From NCBI RefSeq assembly GCF_900187445.1, contig NZ_FYEB01000005.1, positions 1 to 64,000 on the forward strand: DNA of 64,000 nucleotides. The letters run 5' to 3'. Positions within the stretch are counted from its first letter, which is position 1. Each line of letters opens with the position of its first letter. A program made the translations under genes and the position numbers. Below the pieces are notes generated by a model. It had not been told where the DNA came from. It made no database searches and worked only from the letters and a program-made list of their open reading frames with translations. This DNA is from Pseudomonas sp. Irchel s3b2 (GTDB lineage Bacteria; Pseudomonadota; Gammaproteobacteria; Pseudomonadales; Pseudomonadaceae). Positions 49,713-59,810 of this stretch are shown here, piece by piece.

Positions 49713-49864
49713 TGCGGCTACCAAAATTGCTGCCTAGAGTGGGTCTGTCGCTGACCGCAGTTAGCGATAGGGTTTCGCAGCCCCAAGGAGAGATGGCCTT
49801 CACCGTCGAATGAAAATTCTGGCAAAATTCGCCCGCGTTTCATTTCATGGCGGTTGTGCGTGGG

Positions 49865-49955
49865 AGACTTTCGAGTCTGCCGGGTTTAGGTCATCTCTCG
49901 GTCTGCGAACCCGCGTACAGCTGCCACCCAATTGTTTCGCAGCGAAAAGGTGGCA
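49865..49955 (+). promoter_or_regulatory. Structured 5' leader upstream of small gene
   Basis: Three consecutive hairpins: AGACT-TTCG-AGTCT (49865-49878), CGGGTT/AACCCG (49881-49886 with 49908-49913), and TGCCACC/GGTGGCA (49922-49928 with 49949-49955) with an inner TTTCG/CGAAA. They directly precede the gene at 49985. No T-run follows, so this is not a terminator. It may be a regulatory leader or a small RNA. Confidence 0.45.
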
Positions 49956-49984
49956 CCTCTATTTACTTTCTTAGAGAACTACCA

Positions 49985-50272
49985 ATGACCACGAACAACC
50001 CGCTTCGCCACTACTCCCCGATGCCCCACCACGCCACCGACCACCCCGTCCTCCTCATCGACGCCGATGCCCCGCTACGCGAACTCCACAACTGCCTCAG
50101 CGAACGCCTCAACGCCATCCTCAAATACCTCAACCTCATGGCCTGCACCAGCCTCCCCGACTACGCCGAGCACGACATCAACACCGTCACCAACATCGCC
50201 CGGATCATGGTCCAGGATGTGAGCGATGTGTTTCGGGTGATTGAGCAGCGTGGTTTTGATACGCCTAAGTAA
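49985..50272 (+). CDS. Small conserved protein of unknown function (intact copy)
   Basis: A 95-residue soluble protein, likely helical: VLLIDADAPLRELHNCLSERLNAILKYLNLMAC and INTVTNIARIMVQDVSDVFRVIEQRG. It has no signal peptide. Similar short proteins are common in Pseudomonas; I cannot name a function. The 3' half (from 50128) is duplicated at 55436-55583. ATG 49985 was chosen because the frame before it has no related protein content and the structured leader ends just upstream. A terminator follows at 50288-50314. Confidence 0.72.
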   Translation: MTTNNPLRHYSPMPHHATDHPVLLIDADAPLRELHNCLSERLNAILKYLNLMACTSLPDYAEHDINTVTNIARIMVQDVSDVFRVIEQRGFDTPK

Positions 50273-50621: not shown

Positions 50622-50935
50622 CTATCTTGGACGCTTTCATTATTGATCAAATTTCAATTAATTATAAAAAACTGTAACTTCTTACAGTAGACCCAGAGCC
50701 AGCCCGTCAGCAATATGAAGCCATTCAGCAGAACGCTTGGTTAACGGATTTAAAAAGACCCCCATTTTTTGAGCGATTTGACAGATTTCTCGCCGATCAG
50801 GTAGGCGACTCCTGTCGAATTATTTCGCACACTTTCAGATTCAGTTAACAATCTAGTTTGGTTTGGCGTGCCGAGCAATCAAGTCATTAATTTTACGCTC
50901 GTACTTGTACCCTAACTATTGAATACGGAGGCTAC
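50622..50935. other. A/T-rich promoter region of the fusion gene
   Basis: About 310 bases, markedly richer in A and T than the flanks. An imperfect palindrome CAGG-TAGGCGACT-CCTG lies at about 50799-50815. No ORF is present. Confidence 0.5.
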
Positions 50936-53900
50936 ATGGACAAAGCCCATTCCACGCTGGACGTTTGCCTGCGAGAGCGTGCTGGACTAACACCGGACAA
51001 ACAGGTCCATGTATTCCTCGACGACACCAATCAATCCGAGGTTGGCGTCAGCTACGCCGAGCTCGACCGTCGTGCCCGAGTCATCGCGCAATCCTTAGAT
51101 CAGTTCGGGCAAGAGACCAGGGTACTGTTACTATTCTGGCCTGGGCTCGATTTCATTGCCGCCCTGCACGGCACCCTGTACGCAGGGGCGTCCGCCATTC
51201 CCGCCTATCCGCCAGAACCTTCTCGGATTGAGCGTACTTTGGCACGTCTAATGACCATAGTTGCCGATGCGGCACCCGCGGTGGTGCTCACCAGCAGCAC
51301 GATTCTTGAGCTGGCAAAGCCCATGCTGGCCTTCGCCCCTCAGTTGGCACAACTGCCATGGCTTGCAGTCGACAAGCTGTGCCAGGACGAGACTTCCCCC
51401 GCGTTTAAAGAGCCCGGGCTAACGCCCCGACACCCGGCGATTATCCAATACACCTCAGGCTCTACATCAAGGCCCAAGGGGGTCATCCTCAGTCATGGCA
51501 ACATCATTGCCAACATGCGGATGATCCAGGCAGAAATGGAAGCGCAAGCCGAACAAGGACCTGATCGCATCGTGGTCTCTTGGACGCCGTTTTATCATGA
51601 CCTTGGCCTGATGGGTGGAGTCCTGCTCCCGGTCATCATGGGCGGCCGCTCGGTACTTATGTCCCCTCTCGACTTTATGCGGCGCCCTGCGGTCTGGTTG
51701 TCGACGATCAGCCGATACCGAGCCACCGATACATTCGTACCGAATTTCGCACTCGATATCGCCGTACGCAAAATCGTCGGGGCCGATCGATACGCACTCA
51801 ACCTCAGCAGCCTCAGAACCTGCATCGTGGGTGCCGAACCAGTGCGTCACGCCAGTGTTGAACGCTTTCTTCACGCCTTTGGCAAACAGGGGTTAAGCAG
51901 AAACTGCATGGTGCCAGCATATGGCTTGGCCGAAGCAGTGGTTGCCGTGGCCGCAGGCCCCGCCTCTGAGACACCGCGAACTCTCTTCATTGATGGCGAA
52001 GCCCTCAAGCATAATCGTTTCACGCCAGTCCAATCGTCCCATCCGCAAGCCTTACCGTTCACCTCCTCTGGTAGGCCGTTGCAAGACGTTCAGGTCAGCA
52101 TCGTGCATCCCGACTCGCGCCAACTCGCGCAGGCGGGTGAAATTGGCGAAATATGGGTACGAGGTCCTCATGTGGCCGTTGGTTACTGGAACAAACCGGC
52201 CGATACCGAAGCCACGTTCGCGGCCACACTCGACCAGGATCCCGATCGCGCCTGGTTGAAGACGGGAGATCTGGGCTGCCTGGAGGCGAACCATCTTTAT
52301 GTCACCGGGCGGATCAAAGATTTGATCATCCTTCGCGGACGCAACTACTATCCCCAAGACCTTGAGCTAGCGATTGAACAGAGCCATGCCAGGATACGAC
52401 CTGGAGCTGTGATCGCCTTTGCCGGTGAACGAGACACCCAGCAGCGGCTGACGATCATTGCCGAGGTGGACGCGCGCCATCTACTCGATGAGACGGGTCG
52501 CCAGCAAACCTTTGCCTCTGTGCTGGATGCCATTCGCTACGCTCTGAGCGCCCATTACCAGTTGCAAGCGCAGGACATCGTCTTGATCAAAGCGGGCAGC
52601 ATCGATAAGACCTCGAGCGGTAAACTGGCACGCCAAGCCTGCCATAAACATTACCTGAAGCAGCAACTTGAGGTCGAACAGGCCTGGGAGCTCAGTCCAG
52701 TGGCTGTCGGCGAAGCGTTGACCTTACCGGGGAATGACACTGACAGTCGAGTCACGCTGATCGACCACATCGCCAAGGAAATAGCGCGCCTGACTGGCGG
52801 TGGTCAGCCTTCGGCGGATACCCGGTTGGATGACCTGGGACTCGATTCGCTCGTCGCGATGGACTTGACCGGCTATCTGGAACGAAGCCTTGGTATCACC
52901 ATCCCGATAACGACACTGGTGGGAACGACCACACTCGATGAACTGGCTGTTCGACTGATCAAACAATATGAGGTGTTGGGTAACGAGGCCGCTGCCCCCC
53001 ATCCCGGCACGCCAACGCTTCACTCCGCCGCAAAGGCAGTGCAACTCGGTCACGCGCGTACGAGCTGTGCATTTGCCTTGCGTGACTTGTCGTCAGCCTC
53101 GCCGCTGTTTTGCATTGGTGGGCTGGGCGGCACAGCCTCCTACCTTGTCGATCTTTGCACCGCGCTCGACAGTACACGACCTTTCATCGCATTCCAGGCG
53201 CCAGGCACCAATGGCGCCGAATCGCCCCTGGGTTCAGTTGAGGAAATGGCTCGGCGCTATATCGATGAGATTCGCGCCATTCAACCCATAGGACCTTACA
53301 CGATTGCAGGTCACTCCTTCGGTGGTCTGGTGGCCTTTGAGATCGCACAACAGCTTGCAGAACTGGGGGAGCGTGTGGATCCCCTATTATTACTTGACTC
53401 TTCCGCTGCACAGTACGAGGGCAGTCCGAGCGATGATGATGAGCTCATGGCGCTGTTCGAGTTGCGCAACTCGTATCGGCGTGTCTCCGGCGTTAGTGAT
53501 GAGCCTCACGTTTTTGCGTCCCTCACCTCGCTCGACCCGAATCAGCAACGCCAACTGCTGACCCAGGAACTGGAAGCGCAGACCGGACTGTTGAACGGCT
53601 CGGCTATTGCCCATGTACTGCGCACATATCGCGCCGGTTACGCGGCAATGGAACAGTACCGGCCACGCCCCTATCCTGGTCCGGTCATCCTGTTCAGGGC
53701 AACCGACGGTTTTCCGGCCAGTGTCATGCATCCCGCTCGTCGCGTGCGCTTTCGCTTCGGGACGGACGCACTGGGCTGGAATCAGTGGTGTCCGGCATTG
53801 CGAGTGATCGATGTTCCCGGAGACCACTTCAGCATGGTTACCCGTCCGCATGTGCAAGCTCTTGCTGCTGCAATAACGCAACAAACGCGGGCCGATATCC

Positions 53901-55213
53901 GCGTCGATATCGGTCTGGACCGATTGATGGCGGCCAAAGGTAGCCATACCACAGGACGCGCCATCGATTACTCATCCACTGGCCTGAGCTTTGATCCCTA
54001 CCACCCGACCTTCATCGAAGATCCATACCCCATTCTTCATCAGATCCGCAAGCACGACCCCATCCACCGCGATGCACGGGGGCACTGGTGGCTGACCCGG
54101 TTCGAGGACGTCTCCGCCGCCTTGCGCGACAAGCGCTTCTCCGCTGATTCGCGCAATGCCATCGGGGTAGAACTTGCACAAACACAACTATCACTGCTCG
54201 GTGCCTGGTATCAACGCCAGGAAGACATGCCCCTGACGCGTCTGTTCAACGAGTTCATGCTCTTCATCGATCCACCACGGCAACAATTGTTGCGGCAGGT
54301 CTTCGGCCCACTTTTCACTCGCGAAGCGATGCAGGGTTGGGAACGCTATATCAGTGATTGTGCCGAAGAGCACATTGCCGACATGTGTCTGCGCTCCACG
54401 CCCGATCTGGTCCGCGATCTTGCGCTTCCCCTTCCGGTAAAAATAATGGCAGAGGTTCTCGGATTTCCTCGTGGGGATGCCAGCTTGCTGGTGCCTTGGG
54501 CACGCGATCTCGCCCTGGTATTTGATCCGCTGATTTCCAATGAAGTAGTGCAACGGGCCAATCACAGTGCCGACAGTTTCGCAACCTACCTGCGCGAACA
54601 TTTGGGCAGGCAGGTCAATGGAACCGCCAAGCAAGTCTGTAAACTGGACTTGAATGCGGCGCTGGGCAATGGCATCACCATGGATGAGCTCATCTCCCAC
54701 TACGCGCTCATTTTCACCGCTGGCTTCGAAACGTCAATGAGCATGCTCGGTAACAGTGCGTTGGCGTTGCTACGCAACCCTGACCAAAGCGACAGATTGC
54801 GTCAACATCCGGAGCTGGCGAAGGTCGCCGTCGAGGAGTTTTTACGCTTTGACGGCGCAGCCCGCAGTACGCTTCGCTATGCCCTGGAGGATATTGAAAT
54901 CGGTGGACAACACATCAAACGGGGTGACACGGTAATCATTTCGTTCGCGGCGGCCAATCGTGATCCCGCGATGTTTCCTGACCCTGACCGCCTGGACCTG
55001 GGTCGAGGCGTCAAGCAGCACCTCGCTTTCTCCCACGGTGCGCATTATTGCTTGGGCGCTGAATTGGCCAGGCTCGAACTTGAGCATGTGATGCCGGCTC
55101 TTGCTCGCCGGGACATTACGCTGGTACCTAACGGCCTGGCTTGGCGACAAAGCATTATATTCCGCAACCTCGAGCGCATGAGAATCACGATCAGAAACAT
55201 TGAGGTCAACTAA
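50936..55213 (+). CDS. Fatty acyl-AMP ligase / ACP / thioesterase / cytochrome P450 fusion
   Basis: A 1425-residue four-domain enzyme. Residues 1-575 are an adenylate-forming fatty acyl-AMP ligase: YTSGSTSRPKG at 172-182, SWTPFYHDLGLMGG, YGLAEAV and RGRNYYPQDLE. Residues 605-675 are an acyl carrier with Ser638 in LGLDSL. Residues 720-985 are an alpha/beta thioesterase with Ser794 (GHSFGG), Asp821 and His964 (PGDHF). Residues 1010-1420 are a P450 with AGFET (1262-1266), ExxR at 1301-1304 and heme Cys1372 in FSHGAHYCLG. It should load a free fatty acid onto its own ACP, oxidise it and hydrolyse it off. No ferredoxin gene lies nearby. GGAGG is six bases before the ATG. Confidence 0.93.
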   Translation: MDKAHSTLDVCLRERAGLTPDKQVHVFLDDTNQSEVGVSYAELDRRARVIAQSLDQFGQETRVLLLFWPGLDFIAALHGTLYAGASAIPAYPPEPSRIERTLARLMTIVADAAPAVVLTSSTILELAKPMLAFAPQLAQLPWLAVDKLCQDETSPAFKEPGLTPRHPAIIQYTSGSTSRPKGVILSHGNIIANMRMIQAEMEAQAEQGPDRIVVSWTPFYHDLGLMGGVLLPVIMGGRSVLMSPLDFMRRPAVWLSTISRYRATDTFVPNFALDIAVRKIVGADRYALNLSSLRTCIVGAEPVRHASVERFLHAFGKQGLSRNCMVPAYGLAEAVVAVAAGPASETPRTLFIDGEALKHNRFTPVQSSHPQALPFTSSGRPLQDVQVSIVHPDSRQLAQAGEIGEIWVRGPHVAVGYWNKPADTEATFAATLDQDPDRAWLKTGDLGCLEANHLYVTGRIKDLIILRGRNYYPQDLELAIEQSHARIRPGAVIAFAGERDTQQRLTIIAEVDARHLLDETGRQQTFASVLDAIRYALSAHYQLQAQDIVLIKAGSIDKTSSGKLARQACHKHYLKQQLEVEQAWELSPVAVGEALTLPGNDTDSRVTLIDHIAKEIARLTGGGQPSADTRLDDLGLDSLVAMDLTGYLERSLGITIPITTLVGTTTLDELAVRLIKQYEVLGNEAAAPHPGTPTLHSAAKAVQLGHARTSCAFALRDLSSASPLFCIGGLGGTASYLVDLCTALDSTRPFIAFQAPGTNGAESPLGSVEEMARRYIDEIRAIQPIGPYTIAGHSFGGLVAFEIAQQLAELGERVDPLLLLDSSAAQYEGSPSDDDELMALFELRNSYRRVSGVSDEPHVFASLTSLDPNQQRQLLTQELEAQTGLLNGSAIAHVLRTYRAGYAAMEQYRPRPYPGPVILFRATDGFPASVMHPARRVRFRFGTDALGWNQWCPALRVIDVPGDHFSMVTRPHVQALAAAITQQTRADIRVDIGLDRLMAAKGSHTTGRAIDYSSTGLSFDPYHPTFIEDPYPILHQIRKHDPIHRDARGHWWLTRFEDVSAALRDKRFSADSRNAIGVELAQTQLSLLGAWYQRQEDMPLTRLFNEFMLFIDPPRQQLLRQVFGPLFTREAMQGWERYISDCAEEHIADMCLRSTPDLVRDLALPLPVKIMAEVLGFPRGDASLLVPWARDLALVFDPLISNEVVQRANHSADSFATYLREHLGRQVNGTAKQVCKLDLNAALGNGITMDELISHYALIFTAGFETSMSMLGNSALALLRNPDQSDRLRQHPELAKVAVEEFLRFDGAARSTLRYALEDIEIGGQHIKRGDTVIISFAAANRDPAMFPDPDRLDLGRGVKQHLAFSHGAHYCLGAELARLELEHVMPALARRDITLVPNGLAWRQSIIFRNLERMRITIRNIEVN

Positions 55214-55435: not shown

Positions 55436-55583
55436 CCTCAACCTCATGGCCTGCACCAGCCTGCCGGACTACGCCGAGCACGACATCAACGCCGTCACCG
55501 TCACCAACATCGCCCGGATCATGGTCCAGGATGTGAGCGATGTGTTTCGGGTGATTGAGCAGCGGGGGTTTGATACGCCGTAA
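55436..55583 (+). pseudogene. Truncated duplicate of the gene at 49985
   Basis: Begins CCTCAACCTCATGGCCTGCA and follows 50128 onward to the end. By eye there are five substitutions and one 6-base tandem duplication (GTCACC). It keeps the frame to its own TAA (55581-55583), giving LNLMACTSLPDYAEHDINAV and the rest, but lacks the first 47 codons of the intact copy. Confidence 0.85.
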
Positions 55584-55587
55584 AATC

Positions 55588-55633
55588 AAAAAGGTGACAG
55601 ATCTATTTGTTTAAATAGATCTGTCACCTTTTT
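55588..55633. repeat. Perfect 21-bp inverted repeat, possible bidirectional terminator
   Basis: Arms 55588-55608 and 55613-55633 are exact complements (core GGTGACAGATCTATTT) with loop GTTT, with A-run before and T-run after. A partial copy GGTCACCTTTTTTCCG follows at 55637. It can fold as a strong hairpin in either strand and resembles mobile REP/MITE palindromes. Confidence 0.75.
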
Positions 55634-55685: not shown

Positions 55686-55994
55686 TCAGACAATCGAGTG
55701 ATTTGCCGCATGTCCCGGTTGTGCGCAGAGATCAATGCCAAGGGCATGGATGACCTTTAGAACCGTATCAAAACGTGGTTTCGCGCCTGGCGCGAAAGCC
55801 TTGTACAGGCTTTCGCGGCCCATTCCGGAATCCTTGGCAATTTGTGTCATGCCACGGGCCTTTACCACGTAGCCAATAGCACGAAGAAATTCTTCGTTGT
55901 CGCCGTCTGCCAGTACCTGAGAGAGGTACTCGCTGATGGCTTCGTCGCTGTCGAGTAGTGCCGCCATGTCGAAGGTAGTCAACGTGTGGCCCAT
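55686..55994 (-). CDS. HigA/HI1420-type addiction module antitoxin (orphan)
   Basis: A 102-residue antitoxin: DMAALLDSDEAISEYLSQVLADGDNEEFLRAIGYVVKARGMTQIAKDSGMGRESLYKAF, where the HTH lies at MTQIAKDSGMGRESLYKAF. It matches the putative addiction module antidote family that pairs with RelE/HigB-like toxins. Start 55994 has GGGAGG seven bases upstream. The toxin gene that should precede it is decayed, so it is an orphan. Confidence 0.85.
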   Translation of the reverse strand: MGHTLTTFDMAALLDSDEAISEYLSQVLADGDNEEFLRAIGYVVKARGMTQIAKDSGMGRESLYKAFAPGAKPRFDTVLKVIHALGIDLCAQPGHAANHSIV

Positions 55995-55996
55995 TT

Positions 55997-56200
55997 TTAA
56001 ACCTCCCTTGCCAATTTTTTCGCCCGTCGGATATCGGTGTTTTGCGAGGACCCGCAGAGGCACTGTATCCATGTGAATACAGACGAGCAGTCAGGCCATT
56101 CTCTGGTCCAGTGTGTTTTTTCCCTGAATCGTGTAGGCAGTATGACGAAACGGTTACTGATGATTCGAGACTTCTCGCAAGCCCTATCTCCAGGGCCCGC
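55997..56200 (-). pseudogene. Decayed HigB/RelE-type toxin
   Basis: Immediately upstream of the antitoxin, with the usual close spacing, the frame ends CLCGSSQNTDIRRAKKLARE plus Val and stop. This matches the conserved toxin C-terminus (CGGDKSSQ-DI-RAKKLA), with three residues (GDK) deleted. Upstream residues cannot be aligned in one frame, and the N-terminus is missing: the isocyanide synthase gene ends at 56214. The 5' limit given is approximate. Confidence 0.55.
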
Positions 56201-56213
56201 AAGACAACACCAA

Positions 56214-57974
56214 TCAGTAAACCTGCACCCGCCACAACTCCCGTGACGACGAAGCCGCCGACATCGGCAACCGCCCATGCAGCGTCCGATAGTTATCAAT
56301 CAACACCAAATCCCCCTCACTCCATTGATGAGCAATCAGACACTCCGGGTCATAAACCAGCGCATTGACCTGTTCGAGCAGCGCCTGTTGAGCTTCCTCA
56401 TCATGGTCCTGCACAGACTGGCTAAGCGTCTGCAGTGTCGAATCAGTGCCCTCTTGATAACGCAGGATAAGTTCGCCGCTGCGGGGGTGGTGATCCACCA
56501 GGCTGTACATGCGCGGTGAGCCACCGAAGTAGGTCATTTTGGTGTAGTAGGTGATGTTCACCGACTGCCATTGTCGAGCGACTTGCTGCCCGACTTTACG
56601 CAGTACGTTTCGGCTGTCGACGACGGTGGTCTGGCCCTCGCCCGGTTGCGGCGCGGTCTTGCAATACAGCATGAATTTGCTGGCGCAGAATTTCGGATTG
56701 CGCTGAACCTGTGCGTCGCTGTCGGGCAGCATGTTCAGGTCCCAGTGCAAAGGCGTTTTCTCCAGCGAGTGCACCACGCCTTGGGGTTTGTCTGCGGGTT
56801 TGACCACGTGCACGGCGCCAAAGGCCCATTCGTACAGCGTGCCGAAGCGTTCGCAGCTGCGCGCAAAACTGTCCTGGTCGTCGAAGCGACAGCCCTTGAG
56901 GCAGACGAAACCAAAGGTTTCCACCAGTGCTTCCAGCAGGCCGGTGGACAGTCGTTCGAAACCCAGCCCCAAGGGGTCTCGCACCACCAGGCCAAAGAGC
57001 GGAAGTTTTTGCAGTTCGTATTCGAAGCCGTTGGCCTGCGGGTTTTCTGTTTGGTGGTAGAGCCACGGCCGCCCTTGCCAAGTGACCAGCACATGGTGGT
57101 CGAGGTCGACTTGGGCGCGGGCGCGAAGGGTTTGGCTGCCATCGAGGTTGCACACCGGCACAGCATGCCAGGGGCTGTCGACACGGGTCAGCCCTTCGGC
57201 CAGGCCGAAGGTGAATTTGGGTCCGGCATTGCTGTATTGATGGACCGACAAGCGAATGTCATCGCCGAAGAAACGGTCCACTGCCGCATTCAATGCCTGT
57301 CCGCGAAACATCATTTGGTAGGCTTTGAAGTTGATTTGCTGCAGGTACTCGTCCTCGCTCTGCCCGTCTTCACGGCACAGACGCAGGTCGTTGTAGAGGT
57401 GGCTGCAGAGATGGTCATGCGCCTGGCTGAGGGATTCATCGTGCCGGCTCTGCTCGATCAACTCCCCAAGGTTTTTCCAGGGCAGACGGGCCTGCTTGAT
57501 CAGGCTGGCGCGAACCGACTCGGCACTTTGAGCCTGGGGGAACAGGTCTTCCATGCTGACCCACTGAATCGTATGGGTGGTGCACAGTTCACGTAAAGCC
57601 CGGTTGTAGGCGACGCGAACATCGTCGGCAACGCCAACGATGTCATTGAACGTCGTTCCGTCACTGAGGATCGAGACCACACAACCCGGTGCGTGCAACG
57701 CGGCGATGGCTTGTCCGAGCTGGTCGAGGCGCTCGATGGCGATTACCTCGCCATAATCCGGCAGCACACCGAATGTCTGGTCGGTGGCGTTTGGCGACTT
57801 GCAGGGAAAACCTGGCAGTACCAGACGCACCGGCAGGCTCTGATCGAAGCAATGCCCCAGGCGTAGCGCGAGATGCGCTCTGCCTTGTGGGTCGAAACAA
57901 TCATCCGTGCCTTTGAGCAGATAACCTGCGAGCAAATCGCTGACGGCAGCGATCCATGCGTCTCTATGTTCCAT
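56214..57974 (-). CDS. Isocyanide synthase / Fe(II) 2-oxoglutarate dioxygenase fusion
   Basis: A 586-residue fusion. Residues 1-280 are a Dit1/PvcA isocyanide synthase (LVLPGFPCKSPN at 51-62, LPDYGEVIAI, PGCVVSILSDGTTFND, SPWHAV at 267-272), which in known members turns Tyr or Trp into the isonitrile using ribulose 5-phosphate carbon. Residues 330-586 are a TauD/PvcB-type dioxygenase with the iron triad HWD (410-412) and His566 plus a late Arg. PvcB-type partners oxidise or decarboxylate the isonitrile acid. The domain order equals pvcA-pvcB in one chain. GGAAG lies eight bases before the ATG. It is last in the operon. Confidence 0.9.
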   Translation of the reverse strand: MEHRDAWIAAVSDLLAGYLLKGTDDCFDPQGRAHLALRLGHCFDQSLPVRLVLPGFPCKSPNATDQTFGVLPDYGEVIAIERLDQLGQAIAALHAPGCVVSILSDGTTFNDIVGVADDVRVAYNRALRELCTTHTIQWVSMEDLFPQAQSAESVRASLIKQARLPWKNLGELIEQSRHDESLSQAHDHLCSHLYNDLRLCREDGQSEDEYLQQINFKAYQMMFRGQALNAAVDRFFGDDIRLSVHQYSNAGPKFTFGLAEGLTRVDSPWHAVPVCNLDGSQTLRARAQVDLDHHVLVTWQGRPWLYHQTENPQANGFEYELQKLPLFGLVVRDPLGLGFERLSTGLLEALVETFGFVCLKGCRFDDQDSFARSCERFGTLYEWAFGAVHVVKPADKPQGVVHSLEKTPLHWDLNMLPDSDAQVQRNPKFCASKFMLYCKTAPQPGEGQTTVVDSRNVLRKVGQQVARQWQSVNITYYTKMTYFGGSPRMYSLVDHHPRSGELILRYQEGTDSTLQTLSQSVQDHDEEAQQALLEQVNALVYDPECLIAHQWSEGDLVLIDNYRTLHGRLPMSAASSSRELWRVQVY

Positions 57975-58001
57975 AGAACAACTTCCTTGAGAGTGTGTGT
58001 A

Positions 58002-58721
58002 TCAATAGGATTTAACGGTGTCGCCCTGCTCGGTGAACGCATGCGCTGTACCGCAGACTTGCTGCAGGATGCGCAACAACCCGGCAGGCTGTTCGCAGCA
58101 GAAGTTCGGGGCCTGGGCCTGTAATGCAGGGGTCAGGCCATAGCCCCAGGTGACCGCTGCCGAGTACATACCTGCAGCACGGGCGGTCTTCAGATCGATC
58201 TCGGTGTCACCGACAAACAAACAGCATTGCGGATCAACCGACAATCGCCGGGCGGCTTCCCATGCCACCTCCGGCTGAGGTTTGAGCGCCCTGCCCGCGC
58301 GATGTCCCAGAATCGTCCCGAAGGTATTCTGTGGAAGCAGCGCATCGACAACTTGCCGGGCCATTTCCTCGGTCTTGTTGGTGACGATTGCCAGCGGCAC
58401 CTGCAATTGGCGACAACCTTCGAGCAAGGCAAGCACACCGTTGAAGGGCCGGGAAAATTGAACAAGGTTGTTTTGATACAGCGCCACATAGCGCTGGTGC
58501 AGCGCGACCGCATCGGCTATGCCGAACTGCGTGGCAAGCTGCTCGATCATCGCCGTGACCCCGCCGCCGATATAACCCTGCACCGTTTGCGCTGTCTGCG
58601 CCGGGCAACCGTGTTCGAGCAACACCTGGTTCAGGCACCAGGTGATGTCAGGCAAGGTGTCGACCAAGGTCCCATCCAAATCGAAGAGTACGGCTTCGAC
58701 CCGCAACCGAGACGTCATCAT
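58002..58721 (-). CDS. HAD phosphatase, phosphoglycolate phosphatase-like
   Basis: A 239-residue HAD hydrolase: VEAVLFDLDGTLVDTLPDI (motif I), VTNKTEEMARQVV (motif II), KPQPEVAWEAARRL and CLFVGDTEIDLKTARAAGM (motifs III and IV). It resembles Gph. It sits between two isocyanide synthase genes and is coupled by ATGA overlap to the first, so it is part of the operon. It may dephosphorylate a sugar-phosphate by-product or intermediate; that is inference. ATG 58721 overlaps the upstream stop. Confidence 0.88.
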   Translation of the reverse strand: MMTSRLRVEAVLFDLDGTLVDTLPDITWCLNQVLLEHGCPAQTAQTVQGYIGGGVTAMIEQLATQFGIADAVALHQRYVALYQNNLVQFSRPFNGVLALLEGCRQLQVPLAIVTNKTEEMARQVVDALLPQNTFGTILGHRAGRALKPQPEVAWEAARRLSVDPQCCLFVGDTEIDLKTARAAGMYSAAVTWGYGLTPALQAQAPNFCCEQPAGLLRILQQVCGTAHAFTEQGDTVKSY

Positions 58722-59713
58722 TGAGCACTGGCGTAGTGACAAGGACGCCCCTTGCGAAACACCAAGCGGTGGTAGCGCTCATCGACATTGCTGCGTTTTT
58801 CGAGGGTGACCACACCCCGCCGCTTGATAGCCACCGAATGCCAGGGCGTACGCCACAGGTCACTGGTTGGCACCAGTCGAATACCGATCTTCGTCGACAC
58901 CGCCAGTTGCGGGTGAATCGACAGGCGCAGGCAATGCGGGTAGCGCGCCTGTAACAGCGCACTCCAGGCCTCACTGCGCTGGATCACCCGCTGCGATGCC
59001 GGCTTGGCGACTTTCTTCACCGCATTAAGGCTCATCCCGGCGAATACTTTGAGCCCCGAGTAATCCTCGGAAAGAAAGCGATGGATGCCGCAGTACATCA
59101 ACATCATGTGCGGATCATCCTTGAAACGCTGCTGCAACAAGACCAATGACTGACCGTGCTCAATCATCATTTCCTCACGCATGGCGTCCAGACAATCAAG
59201 CGGAGGATAGGCATCCCTGAGGTCGAAATGGGCGAACGTACCGGGATAGTGCTGTTCGGCGTAGTCCTGGATAGCGTCGGTGTAGGCCTTAACGTCCGCA
59301 TCGGGAACATGCACCAAGTCAGAGAACACATAGCCATCGGAGCAGATATGAATCAGCGCTCCCGGTGCGTAGATCTCCTGGATCTCATTGCACAGGCGGT
59401 GTAACTCGTCGATTGCGTGATGCTCAGCAAGATCGGGTAGATGGCTGAGGGTTTTCTTGCGGCTGGGCGACTTGCCGGGAAAGGCTGGCAAGACCATTTC
59501 GATCTGGCGACCGTTCTCGATCGCCTGCATGACCTTGGTCAGATGGGGTTCCAGCACCTGCAACGAAAGTTCGTGATCCTGCCCTGGGGCAAGGTTACGA
59601 CGTCGAAACAGGCATTCGAGGATTTGCTGAGCAATGTTCATGTGCGCGTTGTTCTGATGCTCATGCACCAGCTGACCGCACACCTGTTGAGCAACGGTGT
59701 TTGAACCCTGCAT
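58718..59713 (-). CDS. Isocyanide synthase (PvcA/Dit1 family)
   Basis: A 331-residue stand-alone isonitrile synthase. Family motifs: MVLPAFPGKSPSRKKTLSHLPDLAEHHAIDELHRL, IYAPGALIHICSDGYVFSDLVHVPDADVKAYTDAI, LSIHPQ and the closing RTPWHSVAIKRRGVVTLEK. It is probably paralogous to the N-terminal half of the fusion downstream, but the two are clearly diverged. Start 59713 has AAGGA six bases upstream; an in-frame TTG at 59719 is too close to it. It is the first gene of the operon. Confidence 0.9.
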   Translation of the reverse strand: MQGSNTVAQQVCGQLVHEHQNNAHMNIAQQILECLFRRRNLAPGQDHELSLQVLEPHLTKVMQAIENGRQIEMVLPAFPGKSPSRKKTLSHLPDLAEHHAIDELHRLCNEIQEIYAPGALIHICSDGYVFSDLVHVPDADVKAYTDAIQDYAEQHYPGTFAHFDLRDAYPPLDCLDAMREEMMIEHGQSLVLLQQRFKDDPHMMLMYCGIHRFLSEDYSGLKVFAGMSLNAVKKVAKPASQRVIQRSEAWSALLQARYPHCLRLSIHPQLAVSTKIGIRLVPTSDLWRTPWHSVAIKRRGVVTLEKRSNVDERYHRLVFRKGRPCHYASAQ

Positions 59714-59810
59714 AGACAATCCTTTGTGTGGTGAATAACGGCCATTTTTTGGCCGTCAGCAGATATTCCTTACCTGCGGGCGGCTAAATTCCTACAAGTC
59801 GTGAGGGCTG

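Follow-up and report, generated by a model that had tools for sequence, protein, structure and literature searches.

A FAAL-carrier-thioesterase-cytochrome P450 fusion in Pseudomonas as a putative single-chain system for tethered fatty acid oxidation

Picking up a fatty acid, holding it, oxidising it and releasing it are jobs normally spread over several genes, and the locus described here raises the question of whether one protein could perform all of them. The locus lies in a 64,000-nucleotide stretch of Pseudomonas sp. Irchel s3b2 (contig NZ_FYEB01000005.1, positions 1 to 64,000), hereafter called the window, in which positions 50936-55213 of the plus strand form one uninterrupted open reading frame of 1425 codons, with its ATG at 50936, its stop ending at 55213 and a GGAG motif upstream that ends 5 bases ahead of the ATG. 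According to Pfam, the 1425-residue chain contains, in this order, a fatty acyl-AMP ligase (FAAL), a carrier protein, a thioesterase (TE) and a cytochrome P450. Judged from its sequence, we consider it probable that the chain is a self-contained line which takes a fatty acid through activation, oxidation in the tethered state and release.

A first-pass annotation, made from the letters alone, had described a single polypeptide with four complete domains and had proposed a domain search as a check. In that search the AMP-binding, PP-binding, Thioesterase and p450 families were all matched in one chain, which together with the uninterrupted frame bears the description out. The FAAL domain (residues 1-585; 50936..52690, +) carries the AMP-binding match at residues 13-418 (E = 4.8e-64) and a C-terminal AMP-domain match at 462-582. 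The carrier protein domain (residues about 606-680; 52751..52975, +) is matched by PP-binding at residues 612-671 (4.9e-11) and has Ser638 in the motif LGLDSLV, and the TE domain (residues about 706-985; 53051..53890, +) is matched by Thioesterase at residues 723-982 (1.7e-31). For the P450 domain (residues about 1013-1425; 53972..55210, +) the best stretch of the p450 match is 1245-1388 (2.5e-20), and solved P450s cover nearly the whole of residues 1009-1425 when these are used as phmmer query; the heme-cysteine loop, the acid-threonine pair of the I-helix (AGFETS), the ExxR motif (EFLR) and the P450 fold are all present. The key residues Ser638 (GLDSL), Ser794 (GHSFGG), Asp821, His964 and Cys1372 (HGAHYCLG) are intact, all five at the positions assigned earlier. 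A PHROGs search returned nothing informative.

What kinds of enzyme the first three domains are can be judged from their solved relatives. The first 15 PDB matches of the ligase are all FAAL or FAAL-like, from 400 bits (7r7f) down to 221 bits, and the first listed coenzyme A (CoA) ligase outside the FAAL group scores 88 bits; here we take 7r7e-g and 3kxw to be FAALs, their depositors having used other names. The ligase aligns with 7r7f over residues 12-584 with short gaps only, and we assume the place and meaning of the FAAL-specific insertion within this alignment. The NCBIfam models PRK05850 (fatty-acid--AMP ligase, 428 bits), FadD21 (386), FadD32 (360) and FadD28 (316) agree, and the long-chain CoA ligase model PRK07768 also scores 333 bits, with the next such name, PRK06187, at 176; none of these ligase models reaches its curated cut-off. 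The FAAL identity claimed in the first-pass annotation is thus supported by the solved relatives and by most of the family scores. The carrier domain resembles those of polyketide synthases (PKS), the best PDB match being the carrier domain of PpsC (1.8e-7). For the TE, the best PDB match is the C-terminal part of the nonribosomal peptide synthetase (NRPS) chain 4zxh; with its PF00975 match, its Ser-Asp-His triad and its place behind a carrier domain in one chain, it is, to judge from these features, a TE of the assembly-line type (type I thioesterase). The host genome has one phosphopantetheinyl transferase match (PF01648). The NCBIfam matches also include a synthetase model typical of Pseudomonas (PRK05691), which, like the general appearance of the genes, is in keeping with that genus.

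A fusion seen once might still be a frameshift or a sequencing or assembly join of two genes, which the first-pass annotation had named as the finding that would overturn its view. Looking for the same architecture in other genomes, also proposed there, yielded one further copy, in a second genome of the genus (G367). That copy is of full length, has no stop and keeps the domain order, its 1425 aligned codons being 90% identical at the amino acid level; its frame has 1438 codons from the first start codon, owing to 12 additional codons at the front and one extra codon. It retains the motifs sought, except that one of nine patterns was missed for demanding an extra Glu, the EFLR itself being kept. 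Since G367 carries the same fusion, open over its full length, an artificial join is ruled out at the sequence level. Moreover, selection appears to keep all four domains: between the two copies, the ratio of nonsynonymous to synonymous substitution rates (dN/dS; NG86, one sequence pair) is 0.148 for the FAAL, 0.156 for the carrier, 0.141 for the TE and 0.176 for the P450, the last over 413 codons. The linkers, of just 20-27 codons, give 0.95 before the carrier (20 codons), 1.08 after it (25 codons) and 0.33 between TE and P450 (27 codons).

An AlphaFold2 model of the P450, built with 22 sequences, 21 of them relatives from viral-contig loci, has a P450 fold with a mean predicted local distance difference test score (pLDDT) of 82.5; an earlier single-sequence model with pLDDT 37 was discarded. 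The list of structural matches is headed by CalO2 and three entries of P450BioI with acyl carrier protein (acyl-ACP), at Z scores from 47.2 to 46.2, other P450s following within Z 1-2. CalO2 itself reaches Z 47.2 with a root-mean-square deviation of 2.4 over 393 aligned residues, and P450BioI with acyl-ACP 46.7, 2.6 and 377. Identity to P450BioI is 29-31% in the structural alignments, too low for the two to count as the same enzyme; the line for a CYP family is drawn at 40% identity. The solved P450 nearest in sequence is 9w6b (360 bits, 46% identity), followed at 206 bits and less by CYP107P2 (8yhn), CalO2, PksS and P450BioI. In a tree of 26 P450s the fused ones group with 9w6b at full support; 9w6b has no plasmid match at 1e-60 and is not among the best 50 matches of either fold search (structures to April 2026). 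Among 30 listed matches out of 124 plasmid records, the top bit scores belong to two Nostoc P450 genes (268 and 254, the next being 208), and both stand directly behind FAAL-ACP genes.

How widespread is the architecture? Of the 398 genomes sampled from the genus, 2 contained the gene at E 1e-150, namely the window's own and G367, and a search of 38 relatives returned the window's own copy only, as did the P450 alone at 1e-60 in 249 genus genomes. All these genome draws are samples, overlapping in part, from which absence elsewhere does not follow. A genome-contig collection, which may omit near relatives and whose matches do not include the G367 copy, gave 5 loci from 23 pattern matches, all being ligase matches at 26-31% identity, and in the 158 plasmid records matching at 1e-60 no match reaches 80% coverage of the query. 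The TE-P450 half was searched at the class level in 369 genomes (matches at 1e-35 in 25 of them) and at the phylum level in 398 (at 1e-48 in 24), 2-3 candidates being scored per genome; the matches fall in the P450 or in the TE alone, and none but the window's own spans both domains. Some of the P450 matches sit inside longer open frames, up to 806 aa, in which no TE was found at 1e-8 in G501, G623 and G456, with others such as G918:C12 and G705:C33 falling outside this check. No FAAL was found within the short flanks of the phylum-level matches. Further draws gave one P450 match at 1e-60 in 150 genomes of the family of G1011, no match for the P450 alone at 1e-65 in 58 genomes of the genus of G1074, and no match for the whole chain at 1e-120 in 60 genomes of the genus of G918. 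No FAAL-ACP-TE-P450 chain was recognised in the open-access literature at the title and abstract level. Within the collections and literature searched the fusion looks new, its component parts being known, and because the searches are samples and cover open-access literature we grade it as a variant built from known kinds.

We infer every catalytic step and the product from the domains and their families. The FAAL would adenylate a free fatty acid and load it on the phosphopantetheine arm of Ser638, the tethered acyl chain would then visit the P450 to be hydroxylated or otherwise oxidised, and the TE, by means of Ser794-Asp821-His964, would release the oxidised product, either the free acid or a lactone. 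Since Pfam recognises no redox domain in the chain, the electrons would be supplied by separate ferredoxin and reductase proteins. The first-pass annotation knew of no characterised system with the TE between carrier and P450, and the searches above support this arrangement as unusual; it does not determine the sequence of reactions, because flexible linkers would let the carrier arm turn to one side or the other. A TE acting fast on the unoxidised chain would make a futile machine, and therefore the TE would be expected to prefer the oxidised one.

Several points weigh against this reading. The same-chain TE could cleave the acyl group ahead of oxidation. Closeness to P450BioI and CalO2 is no proof of a carrier-bound substrate, because the P450 fold is common and rows within Z 1 are tied, and Foldseek ranks CalO2, Vdh and PikC before P450BioI. 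For the nearest solved relative, 9w6b, no source or function was found, its code being absent from the open-access literature searched. The Nostoc P450s are not joined with support to the fused P450 in the tree of 26 P450s, and in 14 stretches around class-level P450 matches, some ending at contig ends, tblastn found no FAAL at 1e-8. Loading, tethered oxidation and release are the most economical reading, with some support from the resemblance to carrier-associated P450s; the catalytic logic of the first-pass annotation is carried partly, through that likeness, while its FAAL, its four intact domains and its stand-alone status are supported.

The surroundings of the two copies bear on this last claim. 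The G367 copy sits at an unrelated genomic place. When 80 kb around the window gene were compared by blastn with the 45 kb surrounding the G367 gene, the alignment covering the gene extended 75 bp upstream and 14 bp downstream of it, an extra 97-bp piece lay further upstream, and the seven remaining matches were short, elsewhere and in no case adjoining the gene. The upstream region (50627..50935, +) is only partly common to both copies: blastn and alignment show 50627-50723 and the part from 50861 to be shared, and the 137 bp in between are present in the window copy only; the upstream region may hold promoter and leader. Eight of the nine scanned G367 neighbours have Pfam matches, comprising ABC transporter parts, a solute-binding protein, two regulators, a DAO oxidase and a pyridine nucleotide oxidoreductase. 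This oxidase and this oxidoreductase are encoded ahead of the gene on its own strand (L019 14666-17213 (-)), and since a sub-threshold BFD-like [2Fe-2S] match was found in the latter, a redox link of either to the P450 is possible in that genome. Among the nine G367 and seven window neighbours scanned there is no PKS, NRPS or desaturase gene, and no condensation or ketosynthase domain is present in them or in the chain itself; the two copies have no biosynthetic neighbours in common. To judge by its surroundings the gene is transcribed alone, and its occurrence is sporadic and as a single unit. That no polyketide or peptide synthetase adjoins it, as first noted, holds for the neighbours scanned in both genomes, and the case for a stand-alone machine is strengthened by the unrelated genes around the one orthologue found.

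Four other explanations have to be weighed. The one that survives best, though it is unlikely, is that the protein supplies starter units, the oxidised fatty acid being passed in trans to a distant lipopeptide synthetase and the TE editing stalled chains. Partial similarity to the FAAL is indeed seen in three long open frames of the genome (4401, 4133 and 4510 aa), one of which matches query residues 6-682 at 38%, and in Nostoc the FAAL-ACP and P450 genes directly precede PKS/NRPS genes; however, no synthetase was found among the scanned neighbours in either genome, and the TE is most like a terminal TE of an NRPS.

It is less likely still, and in our view improbable, that the P450 cleaves the tethered chain in the manner of P450BioI and yields a dicarboxylic acid, for instance pimelate. 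The top fold matches do include P450BioI with acyl-ACP, and PMC10741444 describes CYP107H1 as cleaving ACP-linked fatty acids, but the identity to BioI is low, as given above, and the gene occurs in just two of the sampled genus genomes. The host moreover has a BioC-family protein above the curated cut-off (255.6 vs 184.95 bits), because of which pimelate for biotin should come by the usual route; pimelate supply is thus unlikely.

The isonitrile genes next to the locus call for a further reading, in which the four-domain protein would be part of a larger pathway with them, oxidising or supplying an acyl group. This operon-like set (56214-59719, -; Pfam and NCBIfam) comprises a PvcA-type isonitrile synthase gene (58718-59719, -), a HAD phosphatase gene (58002-58742, -) overlapping its end, and a gene in which a second PvcA-type domain is fused to a TauD dioxygenase domain (56214-57974, -). 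Both PvcA-type domains fall below the NCBIfam cut-off for L-tyrosine isonitrile synthase, and the isonitrile product may be unusual. The nearest of these genes, with its PvcA-type and TauD domains, starts about 1 kb away and the set runs toward the four-domain gene, but it lies on the opposite strand, an antidote gene and a terminator-like palindrome stand in between, and the 45 kb around the G367 orthologue have no blastn match to the isonitrile region. As the isonitrile genes do not accompany the only orthologue found, the link is disfavoured and very improbable, and we leave them out of the proposed system. Least probable of all, and hardly to be expected, is a catalytically unused passenger P450 in a futile or scavenging acyl-ACP hydrolase: the chain lacks a redox domain and no typical P450 redox partner was recognised among the seven window neighbours, but the dN/dS of the P450 is low, the heme cysteine, AGFETS and EFLR are kept in both copies, and G367 has the oxidoreductase and DAO oxidase upstream, whose link to the P450 is conceivable only.

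Several features of the gene and its flanks may bear on its origin. Its third-position GC, 0.629, is the lowest among 19 picked window genes, another having 0.633, and fits weakly with a foreign origin. Two direct repeats, found by blastn of the flanks and 93% identical, stand on either side of it: the left copy (50128..50265, +; 138 bp of 138/144) is the 3' part of a small gene at 49847-50272 without Pfam match, and the right copy (55436..55579, +) lacks the front of that gene. Many genomes of the genus contain relatives of the repeat, several of them more than one, and the two copies could be the scar of an insertion by recombination. Of 149 genomes, 49 have matches to the right flank, which fall in the repeat or in part of the antidote gene, and no empty insertion site was established from them. 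Beyond the right repeat lie a terminator-like inverted repeat of 20 pairs between convergent genes (55589..55632, strand-neutral, reported by the scan as -), from a scan that gave 6 sites overall against 5.5 in shuffles, and the gene of an HI1420-type addiction-module antidote protein (Pfam; 55686-56072, -), which stands beside the four-domain gene.

If the four-domain protein does activate, oxidise and release a fatty acid on one chain, it would be a very small carrier-tethered oxidation system, which would show directly whether the site that the P450 attacks is set by the tether, and it might serve as a biocatalyst for hydroxy fatty acids. FAAL, carrier, TE and P450 would then form a pathway without PKS or NRPS, and cluster-finding programs keyed to these synthases may overlook pathways of this kind. 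A wider view is conceivable, to which we lean with less confidence and short of calling it probable: a single movable gene might contain the whole pathway to a natural product, in which a fatty acid would be captured from the pool, tethered away from CoA metabolism, oxidised where the tether directs and released as a bioactive hydroxy acid or lactone, without any assembly line and with general redox partners only.

Comparison with known systems places the protein among several partial counterparts. In bacterial polyyne clusters (caryoynencin, protegencin), according to PMC8406139, three desaturases accompany FAAL, ACP, TE and rubredoxin, and in 10 actinobacterial genomes a P450 gene replaces the thioesterase and rubredoxin genes; the likeness lies in FAAL, carrier protein and thioesterase, and the difference in their being separate genes together with three desaturases. 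The window locus does not resemble such a cluster in the latter respect, no desaturase being among the seven window and nine G367 neighbours to which the search was limited. P450BioI (CYP107H1) has a similar fold and acts on carrier-linked fatty acids, as PMC10741444 describes; unlike the window P450 it is a separate protein, and it cleaves a C-C bond. The FAAL-ACP didomain loading proteins HapA, NocH and AmbG, as presented in PMC11837247, resemble the chain in the fusion of a FAAL to its cognate carrier protein, but they pass the acyl chain to further synthase enzymes, whereas the window protein has TE and P450 on the same chain; the term P450 is absent from the text of that paper.

Further counterparts come from plasmids of Nostoc and Oscillatoria. 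In the Nostoc plasmid loci (NZ_CP026694.1, NZ_AP023443.1) a FAAL-ACP gene is followed by the gene of a P450 which ranks with the best relatives of the window P450, but the two are separate genes before PKS/NRPS genes and the FAAL protein has no TE. One such locus (L015 7925-22004) has vanadium haloperoxidase, FAAL-ACP, P450, PKS and NRPS genes in a row. The plasmid protein WP_015163285.1 of Oscillatoria acuminata PCC 6304 (L017 9989-12793; FAAL-ACP-TE, 934 aa) has the same order of the first three domains and differs in lacking a P450 and in having a sulfotransferase gene upstream. The four-domain chain can be seen as comparable to the Nostoc arrangement of FAAL-ACP and P450 and the Oscillatoria arrangement of FAAL-ACP-TE merged into one, a comparison that implies no history.

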